A stretch of 64,000 bases of DNA from Rhizophagus irregularis. Its lineage: Eukaryota; Glomeromycota; Glomeromycetes; Glomerales; Glomeraceae. The stretch is taken from the NCBI RefSeq assembly GCF_026210795.1, contig NC_089451.1:728001-792000 (forward strand), given 5' to 3'. A program made the translations under genes and the position numbers. The notes beneath the pieces are model-generated. The model did no database searches. It saw only the letters and a program-made list of their open reading frames with translations, and had not been told where the DNA came from. Every line of letters begins with the position of its first letter. Position 1 is the stretch's first letter. Below are positions 2,905 through 56,460 of the stretch, piece by piece.

Positions 2905-3622
2905 TAGGGATGGTAAAGTCCTAGGTCCTGGACCTAAAGACCTGGTCCTAGGACCTGGTCTGCAGATCTTTAGGTCCAAATTTTGGACCAGAAGCGGACC
3001 AGGTCCTAAAAAGTCCTAGCCAATAAGGTTATAAGAGATCTATATGTTTAAATTATATATGTATAATTTGCTGTAAATTTGATTTTAAGTAATTATAAAT
3101 TATAAAAAAGTGCACTGCAATATTGCAATACAATTTTTATATTATTAAAATCATATAAAAAATGAGTTGCGATATTGCGATTCACATTTTTATATTAAAA
3201 TCAATATAAAAAAGTGAATCGCGATACCGCAACTCACTTTTTTTATATAAAATCAATATAAAAAAGTGAATCGCGATACCGCAACTCACTTTTTTTATAT
3301 AAAATCAATATAAAAAAGTGAATCCCGATACCGCAACTCACTTTTTTTTATATAAAATCAATATAAAAAAGTGAATCCCGATACCGCAACTCACTTTTTT
3401 TATATAAAATCAATATAAAAAAGTGAATCCCGATATCGCAACTCACTTTTTTTATATTTAATTATTACTAAAATTCATAAAATCTATAAATAACTTAGTC
3501 AGGACCAGGTCCTGGGACCAGGTCCAGGACTGGTCCTAACAGGACCTGGTCCGCAGGTCCGTTCAATAGGACTTATAGGTCCCAGGACCAGGACCAGACC
3601 AGGACCGACCTAACCATCCCTA
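2905..3622. mobile_element. hAT-type MITE with 8-bp target duplication
   Basis: The ends are inverted: TAGGGATGG at 2905 and CCATCCCTA ending at 3622. They are flanked by a perfect 8-bp direct repeat, TTTATAGC at 2897-2904 and 3623-3630. An 8-bp duplication with TAGGG-type termini is characteristic of the hAT superfamily. The outer arms (2915-3010, 3500-3610) are dense in AGGACC/GGTCCT words in both orientations. The core (about 3150-3455) is a tandem array of hairpin-forming units. No transposase is encoded, so the element is non-autonomous. Confidence 0.85.
3150..3455. repeat. Tandem hairpin array inside the hAT MITE
   Basis: About five to six units of roughly 57-60 bp. Each pairs AAAAAAGTGA with TCACTTTTTT across a loop of about 16 bases (AATCSCGATACCGCAAC-like). 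The later units are nearly identical, which points to recent amplification. Confidence 0.75.
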
Positions 3623-9106: not shown

Positions 9107-10955
9107 GCTGCTCCTGGCTCATCACAAAGTTGTATTTTATTAAATATAGTTAAAACTTCCTTTTGTGTATTTAAGGTAGGAATTAAATACATAGCACTAC
9201 GAATTTCGCTTGAAAAATGTTTATTTTTATCAATATTTTTATAATGAAAAAAAATTTTTTTATTAATATTAGTATAATTATGCTTAAATAAACAAATTAT
9301 ATAATATTTACCATTTGTAATGTACTTGTTAAAGTTTGTAAATGTGTTGTAAATGTTCAATAGGAGTTAAGTGCGAATACCTTGAATTTAAAAATTGCCT
9401 AATCCTAGTTATAAATATATAATTTAGACGAAATTATAATAATTAAAATTACATAATATTTAATCTTACCAAGAGCTTGTCCTTTATGTTAGTCAGTAAG
9501 AACACATCCTAATCCTTTTCCATGAATATGGTGAAAATTAAATGTTTCGCCAATATCTTTTTCTACGCATCTAAATAAATCATCAAATAGATTTTGATAA
9601 GCTTGAGCGGTTTCAACATTTGTAAATATTCGCACAAATGTTAAAACTATATATATTTAATAATAAATAAGTAATTTTTTTTTAAAAAGAAAAAAAAAAT
9701 ATAATTTAAAAATTTCAACCTACTTTTTTGTATACGAGGTAAATATGCTGAAATTTTCCATTCATTTGTATTACCATTTATCCTTTTAAATGCCATGTCA
9801 ATTTCCATATGTGTTAGTTCTGAAATAGCCTTAAGTTATTGCTTAGTAACACATAAAATAATATATTGCCCATCATCAAGAAAACCTAAATGTGAGCAAT
9901 AAACAATTTTTAATATTTTTTATAGTAAAAAATAATCAATAATAATTAATAATACTTATGAATTGATCAAATATATGGATCTGTACTTTTCTCATGTCTC
10001 ATAAATTCGTGTATAATCCCAATATATTTTGCTCAAATGGATATTGAGAATGTCAGGTTTTTTCAATGTAATAATTTATCTTAGATTGATTATTTAACGA
10101 TAGATGTAAGTTACTTAATGCTTTTCCATTTAAATAACTTTGAATCATAGATCCTATTAATATTCACAATCATTAAAAAATATGAATATAAATTTATTAG
10201 TCTTCAATATTGTTTAAATTATACAATAATTAAATTATAGAATATATACCTGTTAAAAACTTTCTTGTAGTTAAATCAAGAATATACTCATTATCAATTA
10301 TTCTTTGAAGTTGTGCTTTAATATTATATGGCGTTTTACGTGGTAGTGGAGATGGGTGATTATGTTGATCTACTGAAACAATTGCGATAAATGGACATTC
10401 CTTTAAATTAACGGGAATAATATGATAAAATTTGACTGGGTATGGGTTGATTTTTTACTTATAACTCCTTTAACAACAGTATTTCCACATTTATGCAAAA
10501 ATGCTTTAAATATAATAATAATAATTTATTGATTAATACTTAAATTATTACTAAAGTATTATAAATTGAAATTACTTATGACATTCATCAGATTGTGCAT
10601 TATTAGGTCGTACAATAAAACATTCATCTATTGTATTATTTTGATCGTTCTATAATTTAAATATTAAATTAATTAGTATATATTTTTTTTTTATAGATTT
10701 ATATTTATAAAAATTAAATTTTACCTTGAAATCATTATTATGAGAATGATAAAAATTTTCGTTAAACATAGTTTCTAACAGTTCCAAATCAATATTATTT
10801 GGAATTGTTAAAAACTGATAATTTTTGTCTCCAGCTTTCCAATTTTCGCATCCAATAAACTTCTTCTTTGATGATATCAAACCATTTACCTGTGAATAAT
10901 ATATTAAAAAAAAATCAATTAAAAATAAAAAATATATATATTTATATACTGTATA

Positions 10956-12554
10956 CAGTCCCCTCTCGATATAATGAACCCTAGGTTCCAGCTGATCAGG
11001 GCTTCGTTATAAGCAACTTCGTTAACACTATAACGAATTATTCGGTATTGTATAATGAATTCTTCGGTATAGGAATATCGGTTATACAGATCATGTGACT
11101 TGTTGATCTGATTACCGATAATTTAACATTTTTTTTAATCTTTTTTTTATAGGGGTGCTTTCTAAACTTCAAAATAGATGCCTAGAATGAGAAGTAAGTG
11201 GGAACTGGGGGGTTTTTTATATTAATTTCGTTTAAAAACATTTACTAATGTTCTTTTTTTATTTTTTTTATTGTAGGAAACTTCCTGGACTTCGAAATGG
11301 ACGCCTGAGACGAGAAGTAAGTGGGGAACTCAATTTTTTTTATTTAAGAACATTTACTAATGTTCTTTTTTTATTTTTTTATTATAGGGAACTTCCTGGA
11401 CTTCGAAATGGACGCTTGAGACAAGAAGTAAGTGGGGAACTCGATTTTTTTTATTAATTTCGTTTAAGAACATTTACTAATGTTCTTTTTTATTTTTTTT
11501 ATTGTAGGGAACTTCCTGGACTTCGAAATGGACGCTTGAGACAAGAAGTAAGTGGGGAACTCGATTTTTTTTATTAATTTCGTTTAAGAACATTTACTAA
11601 TGTTCTTTTTTATTTTTTTTATTGTAGGGACTTCGACATGGACGCTTGGGACAAGAAGTAAGTGGGACAACTCAATTTTTTCTTTTAATTTCGTTTAAGA
11701 ACATTTACTAATGTTCTTTTTTATTTTTTTTATTGTAGGAACTTCGAAATGGACGCTTGAGACAAGAAGTAAGTGGGACAACTCAATTTTTTCTTTTAAT
11801 TTCGTTTAAGAACATTTACTAATATTCTTTTTTATTTTTTTTTATTGTAGGGACTTCGAAATGAACGCTTGAGACGAAGTAAGTGGGACAACTCAATTTT
11901 TTCTTTTAATTTCGTTTAAGAACATTTACTAATGTTCTTTTTTTATTTTTTTATTATAGGGAATGCTTCCTGAAGTGTTCTATATAAAAATGTTTATTAT
12001 AATTCCTTTTTTTTGTAGGAATGCTGTTTAACAATAACTGACTATATAATAAATAAATTATTAATGATATATTAATTTAACTAAGTGTCCTTACCCCTGC
12101 GATAAATATAAATTAATAACAATTCACATCGAATCCTAATACAACCGAATTAATGTAAATTAATGTAATTCTGCCTAAATATTAAATAAAATAGCCAGAA
12201 TTATTAATCCCGATACGATCCCTGATACAATCCCTGATCTATAATTTAAATATAAAACACAGGGGTGATATTTAATGTCATAATGCATCAATATTTATTA
12301 ATAATTACATTTAATTATAAAGAAATTATTCGTTATAACTGAAAAAAATTCGTTATAAAAAAAATCCGTTATATCGAGAGGCATTTTTATATAAGAAATT
12401 CACACACTTTACTTCATACTACGTTATACGGTAAATAAATAGTAAACTTCGTTATATCAAGGTTTTTTTCATATTTAAAATCGGTACCACACTGTATGAT
12501 CCGTTATATCATGTTATTCGCTATATCGAGGTTCGCTGTAGAGAGGGGTGACTG
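10956..12554. mobile_element. Pogo-like element (1599 bp) carrying a minisatellite
   Basis: The termini are CAGTCCCCTCTCGATATAAT and, inverted, CGCTGTAGAGAGGGGTGACTG, flanked by TA. Secondary inverted blocks (GTTATAAG, TTCGGTAT) lie inside each end. The core is the tandem array described at 11150-11990. No transposase is encoded. It sits in the MULE relic between its N-terminal region and its zinc-type block. Confidence 0.75.
11150..11990 (+). repeat. Minisatellite whose monomers mimic exon plus intron
   Basis: About seven to eight units of roughly 111 bp, with TTCGAAATGG-type anchors at 11291, 11402, 11522, 11632 (TTCGACATGG), 11743 and 11855. Each unit reads as follows: a T-rich tract ending ATTGTAG; a 26-40 nt conserved block (CTTCGAAATGGACGCTTGAG core); GTAAGTGGG; then a gap containing the hairpin GAACATTTACTAATGTTC, whose TTACTAAT resembles a fungal branch site about 30-35 nt before the next AG. 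All signals point along the plus strand. No long coding frame survives across units. Confidence 0.75.
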
Positions 12555-14056
12555 TATACAGTATAAAAATAAGAAACTGCGTGAGTTCGCCTAAAATTAG
12601 TCCACTGTTACATCGTTTTCCATTTTTGTTAATATGGCTACATTTATATTTATACGCCTTGGCAAAAAAACTACAAATTCAAAATTAGGGTTAAAAATCA
12701 AACTACATATATTTAGACTTTAAAAATCTTACTAACCGAAGTGTAGTTTTTTTATGAAACTCTTCATTTGCATTAAACATATTTTCAAAAAGAGGTGTGG
12801 AAAAATCTACAGATGTGTGGCCAATATCTAATTCTTTAGATGTGTATTGACACACTTTTACACTAAGACATTCGCGCTATTCTTTAATTACTGAAATATT
12901 TGGAAAAAATTCACAGTTTTTTACTGTGCGAATTGTTCCATTTCCTCCATATGAGTATTAGATATTAGTTAATGCAAATGCTTTTCGCGCTTCATGTTCA
13001 TCCTATCCTGATATATTAAAAATGCTCGCAAAATCAGTTTCGAACATATTAGGATATTCCTAGAATTCTAAGTAATAACGAATCTCTGAAGTTGTTAAAT
13101 TCTTTCCAAATTTAGCAATATTTTGAATAGGCCACTATAAAAAATGAAATATAAATTAATCATTATGATTTATACAATACGAAAATATATATATTTTTAG
13201 TAATGATAACCAATTTTAACAAAAATAAATACTAATTTTAGTATTTTTAATAAACATTTTTTGGCCTATTTTAGCATATATTAGGCGAATATATTAAGGA
13301 TAAATTCTATAATTAGAAATTCCAGCATTTGCCAATACTAATGACTACAAATGTCTATTTTACACCTTTTTTAATACTTGATTTACTTCTTCAACAAGTT
13401 CTTCATTGATTATTATGGAATCTTCTGCCATTTTATTGGAGATTTATGTTTTACAAGTCTTTTGGACACGTTTTTTTACAAAAAAAAGCAAAAAAAATAA
13501 AACAAAAATTTTTTTTTGATCAAAGTTTGATTGGCGAATAGTTATTTTTTTTTTGTTTATTATCACTAGTCGAAATAGTCCAAATCAGATAGAAATCGAT
13601 CATCTGATTTTAATCTGATTTATAACTCAATTTTGACCGATTTTTTTAAAAAAGCAATATTCCGTTTGGGTTCTGAGTGGTTGCCACTCAGATATAATTC
13701 AGAATAAGAAATCAGATATAAATCGGATATAAATCAACAAATACTACTAAATCCGACACTATTAATTAGACATAAATCAACTAAATTTATTATATAAATC
13801 GGATATAAATCAGATATAATTCAATTACAATTCAATTTATAAATTCAGATATACTATAAAATATATTATAATACGCAAAACTAAAAATTAGAGTAAAATA
13901 AATTCATATATGCTATAAAAAATATAATATAATATAATACGCAAAACTAAAAAAAGAGTAAAATTAATTCAGATATGTAATAAAACATACTATAATACGC
14001 AAAACTAAAAAAAAAGAGTAAATTAGTAATAAAATAGAATTCTAAAATTCCAACCA

Positions 14057-16422
14057 TTAATCTTCTTGCATAAAACTTTCTGATTTATCTGCTTTATCTT
14101 CCAAAATTGCATCTAAATCTTCATCATTAATATTTAAATCGTCTGTATATTCTGTGTCATATACCATATCCGGTTGATCAACATATGACCAATCGGGAGC
14201 ATCATCCGGTGGTACTTTATCATAGCATTGTATCTCGTCGTCATAGTTCCGAGGTCGCAATTGCTACGTCATTTGTCCCACTCTTAAATGTTTATCAAGA
14301 ACATTTCTTAATAAAAGTCTCAACTAAAATGTAAAAATAAATAAAATCAGAAAATGTAAAAATAAGTAAAATTGGAATTAGTGAAAATAAGTAAAATCGG
14401 AATTAGTGAAAATTTATAGCAAAATAAATTATCAAGATAAAATAAGTAACCTCTTCTAAGCGCCACGATAGATCATAAACATTAATGACTGATTTTGAAC
14501 CTTCATCTTCGGTTTCACTCACTTCCGGTGAATGATATGCATGATTTGCCAGAATTTTTAACAGATCCCGTTTTCCATAACTCGTAATTTGGCTATCCTT
14601 TTTATTAAAGAGATCTTTCACAGCCTTTATCCTTCGCAATTTTTTCTGATTGATAAATTTAAAATGAGTTAATATGGATTATTAATTTGCCACTGGATTA
14701 CATTACATACATCATTTAATCTATTATTGGCATGAATTCGTCAATTGTCTATGCTTTCTTTGCCGGATATCCTCAAACTTAACTTAGATCATCGAGATTT
14801 ATGTAGGCTACTTAACCACCTTGTTACCTGGTTAAAGGATGGTCGATAATTTGGAGTAAGTGATTTTCGGATTTCGGAAATTAATTTACGTTGAATTTTA
14901 ATGTTTTTTGCACTGTTAAACGTTTCATTGTAGTTTAAGTTATATTTCTCATTAAGTGTTTTAAGATTGATTTCATTTCGATTTAATTGATATTTAGAAA
15001 AAGAAAAATTAAAGAAAGTATTATGAAATAATAAAATTAGCAACAAACAGATATGTTAGTAGAAAATTTAGTATAAATTTGTGGAGCCAAAAACGTTAGT
15101 TATTGAAATTAATAAAAAATTGGTAGTTCGTAAAAGTTAGTATACGAATTTGTGTTGAAATTAGTAAAAATTAGTAATTGTAAAGTTAGTATACGAATTT
15201 GCATTAAATTAGTAAAAAATTAGTAATTCGTAAAAGTTATTATATGAATCGTGTTAAATTAATAAAAATTTGTAAAAAATTAGTAATTCGTAAAAGTTAG
15301 TATATGAATCACGTTAAATTAATAAAAATTTGTAAAAAATTAGTAATTCGTAAAAGTTAGTATATGAATCGTGTTAAATTAATAAAAATTTGTAAAAAAT
15401 TAGTAATTTGTAAAGTTAGTATATGAATCGCATTAAATTAATAAAAATTTGTAAAAAATTAGTAATTCGTAAAAGTTAGTATATGAATCGCGTTAAATTA
15501 ATAAAAATTTGTAAAAAAATTAGTAATTCATAAAAGTTAGTAGTATATGAATTATGTTAAATTAATAAAAATTTGTAAATTATCGTAAAAGATGAAATTA
15601 GTATTGAAATCAGTTGCAAAAATTAGTATCAAATATGATTGTCAAAACTTAACAAACTCTTGCTTCTCTTTCGTTAGGCTCTTCAGGTGATTCTTCAGTT
15701 GCATTTGATTTAGAATCCATCAAGTCGTCATCAACATTTTCGTCTTTATCATCATCGTCACTTATTTGGACTACACTTATTTTGCCCTTGGCTTTTTTCA
15801 TTTGGAAAGATGCTTGGATTCGATATCATCGATCTCACTTGCTCTGATTTTTTTTTTTAATTCTTCATTTTCTGTACTGAATGCATCGTTAATTTCCATA
15901 AGCGTACTGAAATCCTCTTTTAAGCCTTTTAATTCCTTAGAAATATCTACGTTTGTTTTCTCCAACTTCGTATTTTTATTACGCAAATCAGTTATTGTCG
16001 CACGTAATTTATGATTTTCTAAAATTTATTAACCAAATTCGGAAACAAACAAACTTTCAATGTAAAGCAACCAAAACAGCAACCAATTTTAGCAATTTTG
16101 TTACAATTATACCAGTTTCCAAAGATGGATTATCATCATAAAGGTCTAAATTATGGCGAAGATCCTTTTGCTGTTAAATAGGAATCTGGAACCTTGAAAT
16201 TTTTATATTGTTCTTTCATATGCTGAACTTTTGATTTTGAAGTAACGGTCGATTTGCTAGTGGTAGCAGGCGCAGGAGTAGTTTCGTTGCTAGTGGTGGC
16301 AGCAGGAGTAATTTCAGAAATTTCAGAAGCTCTTTTGCTAGTGATGGCTGCGGTGGCAGCAGGAGTAATTTCAGACGGATATTTATAAACTTTGGTAATT
16401 TTTTTTTTTCTTGTTGGGACAT
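14057..16422 (-). pseudogene. CACTA accessory protein gene, broken
   Basis: This is the second gene of the CACTA element. It starts at 16422 (MSQQ). Nine A residues near 16400 then shift the frame: the better continuation (ITKVYKYPSEITPAATAAI to YKNFKVPDSYLTAKGSSP) is one base out of phase. Further exons are coiled-coil-like (15798-15986, ISKELKGLKEDFSTLMEIND), basic (14789-14990, NQVTRWLSSLHKS) and central (14455-14639, FNKKDSQITSYGKRDLLKIL). The last part (14057-14320, LRLLLRNVLDKHLRVGQMT, a TAG, then LRPRNYDDE) ends in an acidic tail. The function is unknown; by analogy with plant CACTA second genes it might bind subterminal repeats (inference). Confidence 0.5.
15070..15600. repeat. 60-bp tandem repeat inside the CACTA element
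   Basis: Eight or more units centred on AAAGTTAGTATATGAATCG and TTAAATTAATAAAAATTTGT; TATATGAATC recurs at 15241, 15301, 15361, 15420 and 15480. It lies within the accessory gene's span, probably in an intron. Confidence 0.8.
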
Positions 16423-16917: not shown

Positions 16918-19900
16918 AGTAGACGAAAGAGATCAATTTCTGCTTTACTTAGCAATGATGAAGAATCAATTACAGCTCGCTCTTCTCGTAAAAGTAGAGC
17001 GATCTCTAGAGTAATTGATGAAGAATCTGAAGAATCAATTTCAATTATACATACACATGACAGAAGAATGGTTCCTTGCAATTGTTCTAAATGTAACGGA
17101 AAAATAGTAGATGTTTGTACAAAATTGAACCATGAGGCTGATCGAGATTCGGATGATGACCAAGATTTGGAAGTTGTTCAAGATTATAGTAATCCTTTAC
17201 CATCATCATTTGAAAATTATAGTAATCCTTTACCATCATCATCTGAAGATTATGATAATCCTTTACCAGAAGATAACCCGGTATCGTCTGACGAAGATTC
17301 AGATAATAATCAAAATGTAATTCAACGAATGGAAATGGAGGAAATAGATGACTTATCAACTGATTTACTTTATCAACAACGTTCAAGAAGATACGCAAAT
17401 CAACAAGCAACAATTACCGAAGAAGAAATTCTTCCAGAATTATTCATAACTGATAAAGAATCAAGCGAAACTGATGAAGAATCAAATGAAAGTGAAATCA
17501 ATAATGGCGATAATAATGATTATGAGTATACTGAAATTTTTGAGAATTATGCACCACCTGTTTATGAGCAATTTCAAGATCGAATTAGTCCAGACACAAA
17601 TTCCAATAGACAATTTTTGTGGATTTTGCTGTAGATAATGAGCTTTCGCAAAAAATTTAATATTCCAGAAACAGTAACAGAAGCGCTTATTCAATTCATA
17701 AAGCTGTTATTGATAGAAATCGGCGGTTCTAATTTTGAAGAATTTCCTGGCTCTTTATACTTAGCAAGAAATGTTCTTGGGCTAAAAGATCAAAATCATA
17801 AGTCATAACTTTGCGGCATGTCTGAAATGCCACAAATTATATAATAAAAAGGAAGTAGAAGAATTTCAGCAAAATGGAAATCTTACAGTTATGAAGTGTA
17901 GTCATGTCAAATTTCCTAATTCGACATCCAGGAAATTAAAACAATGCCAGACGTCTTTAGCAGAAAGATCAACGTTATTACATGGCCGTATTAAAATTCG
18001 ATCTGAGAAGATATTTCCATTTGCTAGTATCAGAAATCAATTAGCATCAATATATTGCCAGCCGGAATTCAAAAGAAACTTACGTCACTGGTCTGAACGC
18101 AAACGATTTGATGATATTTTAACTGATATCTATGACAGTCAGGTCTGGAAAAATTTTAAAGAAACAAGCGATGAAAATTTGTCGAAATTTTTTCAACCTG
18201 AAGTGGCTGATTCTAATTTTGGTTTAATGTTAAATCTCGACTGGTTTCAACCATATGATGGTGTTGTCCATAGTACTGGAGTAATATATGCCGCAATTTG
18301 TAATCTACCACGGGATATGCAGTTTAAACGTGAAAATATGTTAGTTCTTAGTTTGTTGTCCAGCCCAAACGAAGTGAGTCTCCACCAAATTAACCATTAT
18401 TTGGCGCCAATTGTCAATGAATTAGTGTTACTTTGGGACAGAGTGACGTTTGATAACACTTTTGAGTACTAAGAATCAAGAAAAATTCGAGCGGCACTGA
18501 TACTCATTTTGTGCAACATTCCCGTGGCAAGAAAAATATGTGGGCATATTTCAGCCCTTTCATCGTGTTATAGATGTGAGAAGAAAGCAAATTACGAAAA
18601 TCATAAACATAATTTCGCTGGAATGGATAATATGAGTGAATGGTTCATTAATCGAGATTCAGCATAATTTCGCGAGAATGCTCTTGGATGGCGTCACTGC
18701 AATTCAAATGCTGCAAGGAATCGCTTTGTAAAAACTACTGGCGTAAGGTGGTCTGAATTGCTGAGATTGCCATATTTCGACCCAATTCAGTTTTTATCAA
18801 TTGATCCAATGCACTGCCTATTTTTAGGCATTGCAAAGTGGATTGTTAAGCAGATTTGGGTTGATGAAAATATATTAAAACCGGAAACTCTAAAAGAAAT
18901 TCAAAAGAAAATGAATCAATTCTAAGTACCAGCTGATATAGGTAGGATCCCGGGAAAGGTAGAATGTGGCGAAGGTTTTGCAAATTTTATGGCCGATCAG
19001 TAGCGAATATTTTTTAACATTTATGCCACAGTGTTACTTTGGAAACACCTTCCTGGCGTAGATAAGAAGATTCTTACACGCTTTGTAAGAATTTGCTCGA
19101 TTTTGGTAGGATGAATTGTTTAATCCAATTTAATGGATGAAGCTCACCAAAAATTGGTTGAAATCGTAAAAATAATTGAGCAAAATTACGGTCAAGATAT
19201 GATAACTCTGAACCTTCACCTTTCGCTCCATTTATACAAATGTGCAAAAAATTTTGGGCCTCTTTACGCTTTTTGGTGTTTTTCGTTTGAGCGCATGAAT
19301 GGCGTGCTAGGTAAGATGCCGACTTCTAAAAATATCCTTTTTCTTCTAAAATTAATTTTAAATTCCATTCCTTTATTTATTTTTTAGGTTCTTTGCCTAA
19401 TAGCCATCGGAAAATTGAACCAGAGCTCATGCGCCGAATTATGAACGATAAACAAATTAATAATATTGTTAGTTCTGGAATAGTTGATACCATATGGGCT
19501 GATCCTTGGAATCTAATTTTTTTATACAAAAATAATTTTATTAAAGCAAATATAAATTATCATTTATATAAGAATAATAAATTTATACCAAATAATGCAA
19601 AAAAAACTAATTAATTATATAATTTTTAATTTTTTTTTAATATAAGATATCATTAAAATTTAAAAGATCAAATATAACTCTCATGACAAAATCATTGATA
19701 ATTCTCCGTAGAAATAAGCTATACAAATAAATTTACATTCATTTGAAAGAGAAAATCGAGATCTATCTAATGAATCTAAAATCAAGTGAATTGAATCACT
19801 AGTTGTTTAGTAATCACGTTCAGTATATTATTGAATTTTATCTAAATTTGATCATTAATTACTTCACATATAGTGATTCAATTTGAATGATCTTTGCTCC

Positions 19901-38504: not shown

Positions 38505-40390
38505 TTAGATTTGAATAATCTTATTAATTTTTATTTTAATTAATAATACTGTAAATAATCTTATTAATTATTATTTTAATTAATAATACTTTGAATAATC
38601 TTATTAATTTTTATTTTAATTAATAATACTTTGAATAATCTTATTAATTTTTATTTTAATATTCAATTTTATTCCCATCTTGAAATTTGGTCAAGAAAAA
38701 AGCAAGGCATATTTATACCTTTTGCTATTATTTTATTATAATTTTATTATATTATCAAGCTGGGAAAAGTATTAGATTTGAATAATCTTATTAATTTTTA
38801 TTTTAATATTCAATTTTATTCCCATCTTGAAATTTGGTCAAGAAAAAAGCAAGGCATATTTATACCTTTTGCTATTATTTTATTATAATTTTATTTAATT
38901 ATAATATTATTATTTTATTATATTATCGAGCTGGGAAAAGTATTAGATTTGAATAATCTTATTAATTTTTATTTTAATATTCAATTTTATTCCCATCTTG
39001 AAATTTGGTCAAGAAAAAAGCAAGGCATATTTATACCTTTTGCTATTATTTTATTATAATTTTATTTAATTATAATATTATTATTTCATTAATATTATCG
39101 AGCTGGAGAAAGTATTAGATTTGAATAATCTTATTAATTTTTATTTTAATATTCAATTTTATTCCCATCTTGAAATTTGATCAAGAAAAAAGCAAGGCAT
39201 ATTTATACCTTTTGCTATTATTTTATTATAATTTTATTTAATTATAATATTATTATTTTATTATATTATCGAGCTGGGGAGAGTATTAGATTTGAATAAT
39301 CTTATTAATTTTTATTTTAATATTCAATTTTATTCCCATCTTCCCCATCTTGAAATTTGATCAAGAAAAAAGCAAGGCATATTTATACCTTTTGCTATTA
39401 TTTTATTATAATTTTTATTTAATTATAATTTTATCATTTTATTATATTATCGAGCTGGAGGAGAGTTAAACAAAGTATTAATTTTTATTTAATATTCAAT
39501 TTTATCCCCCATCTCGAAATTTGGTCAAGAAAAAAGGAAGGCATATTTATACCTTTTACTATTATTTCATTATATTATCGAGCTGGAAAAAGTATTAGAT
39601 TTGAATAATCTTATTAATTTTTATTTTAATATTCAATTTTATTCCCATCTTGAAATTTGGTCAAGAAAAAAGAAAGACATATTTATACCTTTTGCTATTA
39701 TTTTATTATAATTTTATTTAATTATAATATTATTATTTCATTATATTATCGAGCTGAGGAAGTATTAGATTTGAATAATCTTATTAATTTTTATTTTAAT
39801 ATTCAATTTTATTCCCATCTTGAAATTTGATCAAGAAAAAAGCAAGGCATATTTATACCTTTTGCTATTATTTTATTATAATTTTATTTAATTATAATAT
39901 TATTATTTTATTATATTATCGAGCTGGGGAGAGTATTAGATTTGAATAATCTTATTAATTTTTATTTTAATATTCAATTTTATTCCCATCTTCATCTTGA
40001 AATTTGATCAAGAAAAAAGCAAGGCATATTTATACCTTTTGCTATTATTTTATTATAATTTTATTTAATTATAATATTATTATTTTATTATATTATCGAG
40101 CTGGGGAGAGTATTAGATTTGAATAATCTTATTAATTTTTATTTAAATATTCAATTTTATCTCCATCTCGAAATTTGGTCAAGAAAAAAGCAAGGCATAT
40201 TTATACCTTTTGCTATTATTTTATTATAATTTTTATTTAATTATAATTTTATCATTTTATTATATTATCGAGCTGGAGGAGAGTTAAACAAAGTATTAAT
40301 TTTTATTTAATATTCAATTTTATCCCCCATCTCGAAATTTGGTCAAGAAAAAAGGAAGGCATATTTATACCTTTTGCTAAGCTACTCATC
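38505..40390. repeat. Satellite-like tandem array, ~172-bp monomer
   Basis: About ten units. ATTAGATTTGAATAATC recurs near 38771, 38942, 39114, 39287, 39595, 39768, 39938 and 40111, giving a period near 172 bp. Each monomer also holds ATTCAATTTTATTCCCATCT, GAAATTTGGTCAAGAAAAAA and TTATACCTTTTGCTATTATT, and ends in TATCGAGCTGG. Two near-identical variant units (at 39470-39560 and 40275-40380, with GGAGAGTTAAACAAAG) show higher-order duplication. The first 200 bases are shorter 60-bp sub-repeats. Confidence 0.9.
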
Positions 40391-52919: not shown

Positions 52920-54539
52920 ATGATATAATAATAATTTTTTTTTTTTTTTATGTTTTAGAAGACATCAGCATAGCAGGTTCACCAGAGCTACATAGAGGGA
53001 GCACTACAACTAGAAGTTGCGGAAATGCACTCCTACCGTTGAGTGACAGTTAACCAAGCACCTACTCTAATTATTTAGAAGTAACCGGATGTACATCTCC
53101 CTACCCCCTATATACTACACTGGGAAGACGACCCAAGTTTATACCCACACAAGGATGGATCGTAGTGTAGCAGGGTTTCTGACATAGTTATACTACCCAT
53201 TAGCACCCGTCGAAGTGAGCAACCACCCACGTATGGCAGATATAACGGAGCAGACATCTAGAAGTCCTTTCATGATGGTTAGCTTAGAGGAACTGCAATA
53301 CTAAGACTACTAATATGGCCTCACTCAAAGCCCACTACAGGCCGCAATTACCATACCAGCCCACCACAGTTGTAAATCCCCCAGTAGTAATAGCAGTGAC
53401 TACCGGGACAGTAAGCTGCTAAGGGTACTGGGATCATTCCTTTATTATAAGTAACCAATCCCAGCTTACCTAGCGGAGCACCCACCAGTACGTCAAATTC
53501 ACTGAGGAATCGAACCTCACCTTAGAACCTTATATACCTGTGAGCCTACGAACGTCTCCAATCAGCCTAAACCTATTAGAAGGTAAACTACTGCTAAGAC
53601 ATTGCACTTGAGACTTTACCATCTATGAAGACCATCTAGCGTAAGAAATCCCCACAGTAAAGTTTACCACACCCTTAGTGGTATCGTAGAGTGACCACCA
53701 AGACAAGAGCTCACCCAGATGGTATGCAAGCAGTGACCATCCAGACAGGACAATAGGCTTCCCAATGGCCTCATAAGGAATGCTAGGAGGACACCATGAC
53801 CCTTTGTTGAAATATACTGCCGACCAGTACATACTAATTCACCATGATGCAGTCCAACACTGGTCGAAATAGTCCAAATCGGCTAGAAATTGGATGTCCG
53901 ATTTTAGGCTGAATTTGGTGATAAATATGGCCGATTTATTAATTTAGGCAAAGTTCTGATTGGCAGGCCGATCGATGCCGATCAGAATGTCTGAATTGTA
54001 TCTGAATTGCTTAGTATTTTTAATCCGAATTGTTTAAAAAATATTATTCATAAATTTACCGAATTGCAGTGAATTTATTCTGAATTATGGTAAATTTGTG
54101 ACAAAATTTTCTGAATTGTAGTAAAATTTATTCCAAATTGTAGTAAAATTTATTCCGATTTGTAGTAAAATTTATTCCAATTTGTAGTAAAATTTATTCT
54201 GATTTGTAGTAAAATTTATTCCGAATTGTAATAAAATTTATTCCGATTTGTAGTAAAATTTATTCTGATTTGTAGTAAAATTTATTCCGATTTGTAGTAA
54301 AAAATTTATTCTGATTTGTATTCTGAATTGTATCGCAAATTACAGTAAATTTTATTCTGAAATTTAAAATATTACATATACATATAAAACAATTTCACCA
54401 AAAATCATCCCAACTTTCTAACAAATCCGGTATACGTTAAATTCCTTAATTCCCATTTGTTTCTACAAATTGGAGATGATTTTCCTACAAAAAAAAAAAG
54501 AAAAAACATTAAAATAACGTTTTTTTTTAAGTTTCAAGT

Positions 54540-56460
54540 TTCAAAAATCAAAACGTTACCTGTAGGATGGCAAATCGAAGCCAATTTCCATACAAAAAAA
54601 TTAATAAAATATAATAAAAAATGTTAAATTAAACATTTTTATTAAGTTTCGTCAAAAAGTTTCGAAAAATCGAAACTTTACCTGCGGGATTCCGGTACAA
54701 TTTGGAGCTGATTTCCTGCAAAAAAAATAATAAAAAATAATAAAAAAAACGTTAAATTAAACGTTTTTTTATTAATTTGCGTCAAAAAGTTTCGACGAAA
54801 CTTTACCTGCGGGATTCTGGTACAATTTGGAGCCGATTTCCCTGCAAAAAAAATAATAAAATCTAATAAAAAAACGTTAATTTAAACGTTTTTTTATTAA
54901 GTTTCATAAAGTTTCGAAGTTTCATAAAGTTTCGAAACTTCGAAACTTTACTTGCGGGATTCCGGTATCCAATTTGGAGCCGATTTCCTGCAAAAAAAAA
55001 TAATAAAAAATAATAAAAAAAATGTTAAATTAAACGTTTTTTTTATTAATTTGTGTCAAAAAGTTTTGAAAATCGAAACTACTTGCAGGATTCCGATATC
55101 CAATTTGGAGCTGATTTCCTGCAAAAAAAATTAATAAAAATAATAAAAAAACGTTAAATTTAAACATTTTTTTATTAAGTTTCGTAAAGTTTCGAAACTT
55201 TGAAACTTTACTTGCGGGATTCCGGTATCCAATTTGGAGCCGATTTCCTGCAAAAAAAAAATAATAAAAATAATAAAAAAACGTTAATTTAAACGTTTTT
55301 TTATTAATTTGCGTCAAAAAGTTTTGAAAATCGAAACTACTTGCAGGATTCCGATATCCAATTTGGAGCTGATTTCCTGCAAAAAAAATTAATAAAAATA
55401 ATAAAAAAACGTTAAATTTAAACGTTTTTTTATTAATTTTTTTCAAAAAGTTTCGAAAAATCGAAACTTTGCATGTGGGATTCCGGTATCCATATTGGAG
55501 CCGTTTATTTATAAAAATATTAATAAAATATAATAAAAAACGTTATATTAAACATTTTTTATTAATTTTTTTCAAAAAGTTTCAAAAAATCGAAACTTTG
55601 CATGTGCAATTCCGGTATCCATATTGGAGCCGATTTCCCTGCAAAAATATTAATAAAATATAATAAAAAACGTTATATTAAACGTTTTTTATTAATTTTT
55701 TTCAAAAAGTTTCGAAAAATCGAAACTTTGCATGTGGGATTCTGGTATCCATATTGGAGCCGATTTCCCTGCAAAAAAAAATAATAAAATATAATAAAAA
55801 ACGTTATATTAAACGTTTTTTATTAATTTTTTTCAAAAAGATTCGAAAAATCGAAACTTTACCTGCGGGATTCTGGTATCCATATTGGAGCCGATTTCCC
55901 TGCAAAAAAAAATAATAAAATATAATAAAAAACGTTAAATTAAACGTTTTTTATTAATTTTTGTCAAAAAGTTTCGAAAATTCGAAACTTTACGGTATTC
56001 CTACAATAATATTAAAAAAAAAAACGTTAAACGTTTTTTTCAAAGAAGTTTCGAAAATGCGAAACTTATCTGGAATATCGGCGTCCACGTTGGAGCCGAT
56101 TTCCTATACAAAAGTAAAAAAAACGTTTTTAGTAATATTAAAAAACGTTTTTTAAAGTTTCAAAACTTTTGTTTCGAAACTTACCTTTGGAAATCAGTAT
56201 CCAAGTAGGAGCTGATTTCCTATATAAAAGTATAAAAAAAAATGTTAGAAAACGTTTTTTAAAGTAATAGTTTTGCAAAAAAAAATTAATAAAATCAGAA
56301 CGTTAACTAATGTTCCGATTGAAAATATTAAATGAAAAGTTAAAAAACGTTTCGTAAAAAATAAAAATGTTAAAAATTGGAACATTATTTCCGATAAAAA
56401 ATTAAAAAAAAATCCCAAAACGTTTAAAACCGTTTTGTTTAGGAATGAAGTTAGATGAAG
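54540..56460. repeat. Minisatellite of ~115-145 bp with paired hairpins
   Basis: About fourteen units, each holding TTTCGAAAAATCGAAACTTT, GGATTCCGGTATCC, TTGGAGCCGATTTCC and AAACGTTAAATTAAACGTTT. The first and last are self-complementary. The middle units are the most alike; outer units diverge progressively. Frames spanning several units are artefacts. Confidence 0.85.

Follow-up and report, generated by a model that had tools for sequence, protein, structure and literature searches.

In the window (the whole 64-kb stretch of Rhizophagus irregularis DNA which was analysed) a nonautonomous DNA transposon carries a tandem array at 11153-11959, where seven units follow one another head to tail, each made of an exon-like block of 28-41 nt and an intron-like block of 71-83 nt (Table 1). 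A unit reads exon block, GTAAGTGGG, spacer, TTTACTAAT inside an inverted repeat, T tract and TAG; its intron-like block begins with GTAAGT and passes through the TTACTAAT branch motif, enclosed in a hairpin, to the T tract and TAG. GTAAGTGGG, TTTACTAAT and TAG are each found in all seven units.

An earlier note on this DNA had described a minisatellite with monomers of about 111 bp, each a micro-exon plus an intron, in which the hairpin GAACATT...AATGTTC surrounds a branch motif placed at branch-site distance from the next AG. The layout was confirmed in seven ordered units on one strand, and the distance holds as well, at 28 nt in five units and 29 nt in two if the branch A and the G of the following TAG are both counted. 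A uniform unit length does not, as the units measure 109-124 nt, and the hairpin is exact (GAACATT-TACT-AATGTTC) in five of the seven, unit 1 having AAACATT and unit 6 AATATTC instead. The tandem monomers are real, however the array is not free-standing: it is the cargo of a DNA transposon with inverted ends, a TA duplication and many copies.

Table 1. Positions of the transposon, its array and the second array within the window
Feature	Position	Strand	Basis or remark
TA target-site duplication, left	10954-10955	.	TA precedes the left end in 36/36 copies
Nonautonomous DNA transposon bearing the array, 1,599 bp	10956-12554	+	inverted ends; same ends in many copies
Left terminal inverted repeat, CAGTCCCCTCTCGATATAATGAACC	10956-10980	+	similar left end in transposase-bearing L052
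First acceptor-like TAG after T-rich tract	11150-11152	+	
Micro-exon 1, 41 nt	11153-11193	+	
Intron-like unit 1, 83 nt	11194-11276	+	intron-chain finder; hairpin 11234-11255
Micro-exon 2, 40 nt	11277-11316	+	
Intron-like unit 2, 71 nt	11317-11387	+	intron-chain finder; hairpin 11346-11367
Micro-exon 3, 40 nt	11388-11427	+	
Intron-like unit 3, 80 nt	11428-11507	+	intron-chain finder; hairpin 11466-11487
Micro-exon 4, 40 nt	11508-11547	+	
Intron-like unit 4, 80 nt	11548-11627	+	intron-chain finder; hairpin 11586-11607
Micro-exon 5, 30 nt	11628-11657	+	
Intron-like unit 5, 81 nt	11658-11738	+	intron-chain finder; hairpin 11697-11718
Micro-exon 6, 30 nt	11739-11768	+	
Intron-like unit 6, 82 nt	11769-11850	+	intron-chain finder; hairpin 11808-11829
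Micro-exon 7, 28 nt	11851-11878	+	
Intron-like unit 7, 81 nt	11879-11959	+	intron-chain finder; hairpin 11918-11939
Right terminal inverted repeat, GGTTCGCTGTAGAGAGGGGTGACTG	12530-12554	+	inverted ends
TA target-site duplication, right	12555-12556	.	TA after the right end in 33/34 copies with right end found
Second array, same design, different sequence	about 54500-56200	-	tandem repeat 131 x 10.8 at 54579-55990

The chance level of such an arrangement was estimated with an intron-chain finder which demands a donor, a branch motif, a pyrimidine tract, an AG and exons of 15-65 nt, and with ten 64-kb first-order Markov sequences as the control. Exactly one chain of at least three introns, the array at 11153-11959, was found in the window and none in the controls; the finder requires the very motifs that it reports, and the unit boundaries were set with those motifs in mind. 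When the donor was relaxed, one doubtful upstream intron was added, along with three intron pairs at other places in the window, of which two belong to the second array; the ten controls gave two pairs. An Rfam search of 10900-12650 gave zero matches up to E 1.

The carrier and its family

The terminal inverted repeats of the carrier form 42-nt arms which are 81% complementary, flank included. No open reading frame of 80 aa lies within 10956-12554, and the one frame overlapping the left end has no Pfam match. In the genome of R. irregularis DAOM197198 (146,748,485 bases in 32 contigs) a DNA search with the window array gave 44 matches, and 36 copies with 1-14 units per copy, 211 units in total, were compared as family A; this set leaves out L024 (the same place as L050), L040 and the more diverged L034, L035, L037, L038 and L039. 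A transposase-bearing relative, L052 (C20:3763400-3767600), shares with the carrier 112 nt at the left end and 234 nt at the right, and its reading frame, on the strand opposite to its array, matches DDE_1 (1.4e-33) and HTH_Tnp_Tc5 (1.4e-17). Both elements are taken here to be pogo-like (Tc1/mariner superfamily). Judged by its inverted ends, its TA duplication, this relative and the lack of a transposase of its own, the carrier is a pogo-like nonautonomous DNA transposon, an ordinary one of a known kind, and it is the cargo which is the new part. At the element ends the rate of departure from the consensus is 6.5% for CpG positions and 0.2% for A/T positions, which would fit a young family with methylated CpG.

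Outside the 36 copies, 12 places combine the family left end with an intron chain, and every one of the 12 has a chain internal to that end and on its strand. Five loci (L055, L056, L059, L093, L094) have a similar left end yet no chain of two introns; the ends can therefore spread without an array, and array-free relatives evidently move or have moved. One of these, L093 (C5:2221900-2222450), measures about 180 bp, has related ends, is flanked by TA and lacks an array.

Beside the left end of the carrier, at 10744-10890 on the minus strand, there is an exon-like open stretch with flanking splice signals and no Pfam match; the element may therefore be located within an unannotated gene on the minus strand or ahead of one.

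Recurrence of the design and its conserved part

Arrays of this design but of other sequence are found throughout the genome: pogo-like elements carry them, among these one of 3.5 kb with a transposase, as does a hAT-like element, and a second such array is present in the window. This second array has about eleven units of about 130 nt, in which TTTTGCAG comes before an exon of about 36 nt, for example GGAAATCGGCTCCAATATGGATACCAGAATCCCGCAG, and the acceptor is TTTGCAG; the donor, mostly GTAAAG but GCAAAG or GTAGTT in some units, stands at the foot of one hairpin and the branch motif, TTTAAT or TTTAAC, under a second. L052 carries an array of its own, on the same strand as the array at 11153-11959, with exons such as GGAACGACTTGGGAACGGTCTTGAAGGACCTCGG, introns of 77-79 nt and the hairpin AAGAAACGTTCTAACGTTTCTT. 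Of the ten best places for this array type, at least five have a convergently oriented DDE_1 match no more than about 2 kb away; among the matches listed none had the same orientation as the array. The hAT-like assignment is presumed for L062 from its 8-bp duplication, GCGTGGAG, which accompanies perfect 14-nt inverted ends.

Similarity searches with two arrays returned 67 and 81 matches. Among 20 loci fetched by similarity, and thus derived from queries that were themselves such arrays, 19 hold a chain of at least two introns and L067 none, against two such chains in the control of ten 64-kb sequences. A pattern of the consensus hairpin of one type, with up to two mismatches, gave 929 matches in the genome as opposed to 1 for the reversed control. 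Exon lengths vary with the unit type: 40/30 nt in A (the window array), 34/33/20 in B, 32 in C, 32/22 in D, 39 in E, 26/30 in F, 38-40 in G, 45-55 in H, about 39 in I and 34 in K (L096), with another type in L095. At the latter locus (C2:4060300-4062100) two array types lie on opposite strands about 400 nt apart, apparently as nested or adjacent elements, and at L054 (C11:3265500-3270000) two types face each other, the plus-strand one, with 32-nt exons, having no family end beside it.

For the comparison across types each type was represented by a single unit that occurs exactly as written in the loci, and these units were scored against shuffles. Among nine types the exons gave a mean z of 1.1 (z>3 in 1 of 36 pairs) and the intron 5' part minus its first six bases 0.8 (5 of 36), while the intron 3' part, from hairpin to AG, gave 5.7 and exceeded 3 in 29 of 36 pairs, so that the 3' parts are plainly homologous. 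With L096 and the second window array added, z>3 was found in 2, 5 and 45 of 55 pairs for exons, 5' parts and 3' parts respectively, the type I unit used being one without the branch hairpin. Across these eleven types the similarity of exons and of intron 5' parts beyond the donor is about that of chance; every type has a GT donor (GTAAGT in seven) and an AG acceptor. It can be said that donor, branch hairpin, T tract and acceptor survive while exons and intron 5' parts turn over. The earlier note had named the exon together with the splice signals as the conserved part, and this is true within the window array; from type to type, however, the exon is not retained, the recurrent parts being the splice signals and the hairpin part alone. 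The conservation of the 3' part may partly be due to common descent or exchange between arrays.

Within family A the donor and branch show 13 substitutions, whereas 59 would be expected at the rates of exon and spacer for the same base classes and 18.6 at the rates of the element's own ends; these counts leave out 16 of the 211 units, and as the copies are related no probability is attached to either comparison. After insertion the signals decay about like the element ends, which places the constraint in the source lineage rather than at this locus. From these counts, differences among units in the source elements would appear to avoid the splice signals, with decay about even after insertion. 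The expectation that splice sites vary less than spacer bases is thus borne out in the source lineage (13 against 59), but dead copies change at roughly equal rates (13 against 18.6); the even variation of a neutral satellite was not found in the former comparison and was nearly so in the latter. In units anchored on the exon alone the acceptor TAG is present in 160 of 164, and among 160 donors anchored in this way 138 read GTAAGT; 15 of the other 22 donors look like register shifts of the anchor (AAGTGG 11, AGTGGG 2, AGTAAG 2) and 7 do not.

Such data could also be met in a relic or a repeat maintained at the DNA level, a reading which is regarded as unlikely although it deserves serious weight. 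A transposon would have captured a fragment of a multi-exon gene, the unit would have been amplified and exchanged among elements, and nothing would be spliced now; the motifs would persist through descent, homogenisation or arm correction of palindromes, or else the palindromes would be protein-binding or recombination sites. The plain homology of the 3' part (29 of 36 pairs), the range of 1-14 units per copy and the about even decay after insertion are consistent with it, as are genome searches for spliced copies. No match to the type A exon-exon junction was found genome-wide with up to 3 mismatches, the two matches of the type D junction, both at 3 mismatches, were ruled out as spliced copies by their surroundings, and none of eight junction patterns was found in the fetched loci. 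It is opposed by the GT of all eleven types and the GTAAGT of seven amid surrounding sequence at about chance level (in units delimited by motif), by variation among units that avoids donor and branch, and by two carriers with different duplications.

Hairpins, reading frames and splicing

The consensus stems differ by type yet pair fully: AAGAACATT/AATGTTCTT, AAGAAACGT/ACGTTTCTT and AAGAACGTT/AACGTTCTT, the last combining arms from different units; hairpin rows in the wrong register (type C and some of B, D, E and F) were left out. A non-selective alternative for this pairing is arm-to-arm correction of palindromes. Among seven types, the share of array introns with a stem of at least 8 bp near the branch is 20-88%; for host chaperonin introns it is 0 of 18. 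The latter were placed by a heuristic, some ends being doubtful. The median length of array introns is 73-81 nt by type, and the same 18 host introns span 46-161 nt. Folding of whole introns gave z of about -1.2 to -2.1 in types A, B, D and E, and the window array's own intron is not exceptional (z -1.18). Values of -4.6 to -5.3 were obtained for L096 and the second window array (-4.6 and -4.75 in the latter), one of these four introns being the last unit of its array, which ends in GTATG and not AG. An extra donor hairpin pairs the whole donor in two L096 introns and begins right after GT in the second window array. At L096 (C2:229100-230300) the GTAAGT donor is wholly paired in an 11-bp hairpin which persists with different loops, and the branch lies in a second hairpin. 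Hairpins over branch and donor are expected to hinder splicing rather than help it.

A further reading is a splicing trap, in which the hairpins would slow the introns so that spliceosomes stall, and the array would titrate splicing factors or feed stalled transcripts to RNAi. Frequent stems near the branch, set against their absence from the host introns, agree with this, together with the donor paired in L096 or followed by a stem in the second array and the strong folds of both; a precedent for stalled transcripts entering RNAi is SCANR in Cryptococcus (PMC5851062). The trap is nevertheless considered highly improbable: donor, branch and acceptor of most types are near consensus and not weak, the window intron folds unexceptionally, and a trap would harm its carrier element unless it acted on others.

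Whether the joined exons encode a protein was judged by shuffles of equal composition, and the coding reading was not found convincing. It would make the array a fast-evolving micro-exon gene on transposons, its exons encoding a short repetitive, perhaps secreted, protein. Schistosome micro-exon genes and aphid bicycle genes are examples of fast-evolving micro-exon genes. In its favour, the joined internal exons are fully open in L074 (83/83 codons), L062 (126/126) and L069 and L070 (65/65), 4 of 22 arrays, three of them of type B, beat the shuffles at P<0.05, and exon lengths are multiples of three in type H (4/4) and, within type E, in L069 (4/5), L070 (5/5) and L071 (1/3). The other 18 arrays fail to beat the shuffles (P over all 22 ranging from 0.022 to 0.555), the longest open run of the window array covers 53 of 83 codons, and in family A the exon length is divisible by three in just 87 of 207 cases, which means that the frame of one and the same exon shifts from unit to unit. 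A coding role is thus held to be improbable, and the joined micro-exons are probably noncoding, though not with certainty.

Preferred, with a confidence which stops just short of even, is the reading that the arrays are transposon-borne chains of short putative spliceosomal introns which are kept spliceable, whose micro-exon sequence hardly matters and which are probably noncoding. Starting from the observed carrier, layout, recurrence in several transposon families and pattern of conservation, a transcript would begin near the left end of the element and run through the array, the host spliceosome would remove each intron of 70-90 nt (host introns are about equal in length), and the joined micro-exons would form an RNA, probably noncoding. 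The order or speed of splicing could be set by the branch hairpins and, in two types, by those at the donor. Most speculatively, the retained property would be that of being spliced: an intron-rich RNA may be treated like host mRNA, and strong short introns may lessen its exposure to nuclear surveillance or RNAi. A precedent for the quality of splicing deciding the fate of transposon RNA is again offered by SCANR (PMC5851062). Several points count against the preferred reading, namely that after insertion donor and branch do not clearly change less than the element ends (13 against 18.6), the five chain-less loci with a similar left end, the negative genomic junction searches for two types, and the further chain at L054 on the opposite strand without a family end beside it.

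A wider conjecture, quite possible but more probably wrong than right, would extend this to arbuscular mycorrhizal fungi: they may host mobile cassettes addressed to the spliceosome, built of structured introns and disposable micro-exons, taken up by several DNA-transposon superfamilies and selected for being spliced, since splicing would let transposon RNA pass for host mRNA. The hairpins would act as timers, and the cassettes would form part of the genome's unclassified repeats. If the arrays are spliced, they represent a transposon cargo whose selected property is splicing itself, and their natural variants, which run into the hundreds and differ in donor, branch and exon, would become a test bed for how fungi recognise short introns and micro-exons, how hairpins control branch sites and how transposons meet RNA surveillance. 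They would also give meaning to a part of the 24% of the R. irregularis genome which, according to Dallaire et al. (PMC8647823), consists of uncharacterised unclassified repeats.

Known systems and neighbouring features

The carrier resembles pogo-like nonautonomous transposons in its inverted ends, TA duplication and relative with a DDE_1 and HTH_Tnp_Tc5 transposase, and differs from them by the array of intron-exon units. MITEs with internal variable-number tandem repeats exist, for example Drosophila Tetris. A tandem repeat inside a transposon is common to these and to the Rhizophagus elements, but the monomers of the latter add donor, branch, pyrimidine tract and acceptor, and their design, unlike that of Tetris-like MITEs, recurs with different sequence. 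With 1,599 bp the carrier also exceeds the 50 bp-1 kb by which MITEs are defined for R. irregularis in PMC11075540.

Splice signals inside a carrier are known in other groups of elements. An introner is itself one intron. Introners have transposon-borne splice signals and, in some families, inverted ends and duplications, and the main text of PMC9860276, which describes these, does not name Rhizophagus. In contrast to an introner, where the whole insertion is the intron, the carrier has internal signals of which the first is an acceptor, its first donor lies 216-238 nt inside the element in 35 of 36 copies (1,034 nt in the remaining one), and its ends would stay in the RNA; the introner was rejected on these grounds. 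Maize Ds and dSpm insertions are spliced as introns with splice sites inside the DNA transposon. These sites are cryptic and single, whereas the Rhizophagus carrier contains a row of complete introns.

Tandem units of exon plus intron are also found in host genes, such as micro-exon genes and the kringle repeats of LPA, with coding exons that keep the frame. The Rhizophagus arrays are alike in their tandem units, but in most types their exon lengths rotate the frame, exons that are multiples of three being shared with micro-exon genes by type H and mostly by type E. A frame-keeping micro-exon gene was rejected for the window array (exons of 41, 40, 40, 40, 30, 30 and 28 nt) and for family A by the count given above. 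In the SP7 effector repeats a conserved intron precedes the first repeat and the family motif ends each protein repeat, according to PMC11333574. No counterpart of the array cargo was found in searches of an open-access library, where most subscription journals are missing. No known family tested (introner, frame-keeping micro-exon gene, even-rate satellite) fits the cargo, whose newness would shrink if the arrays prove to be relics.

Other tandem arrays are present in the window at 38789-40379 (171 bp x 9.5), 3101-3457 (52 bp x 6.8) and 15206-15579 (60 bp x 6.2), and the chain finder detected no intron chains in these three. At 17786-18472, on the plus strand, lies a fragment of Transposase_21 (tnp2; PF02992 at 2.2e-07), presumably of the CACTA type.
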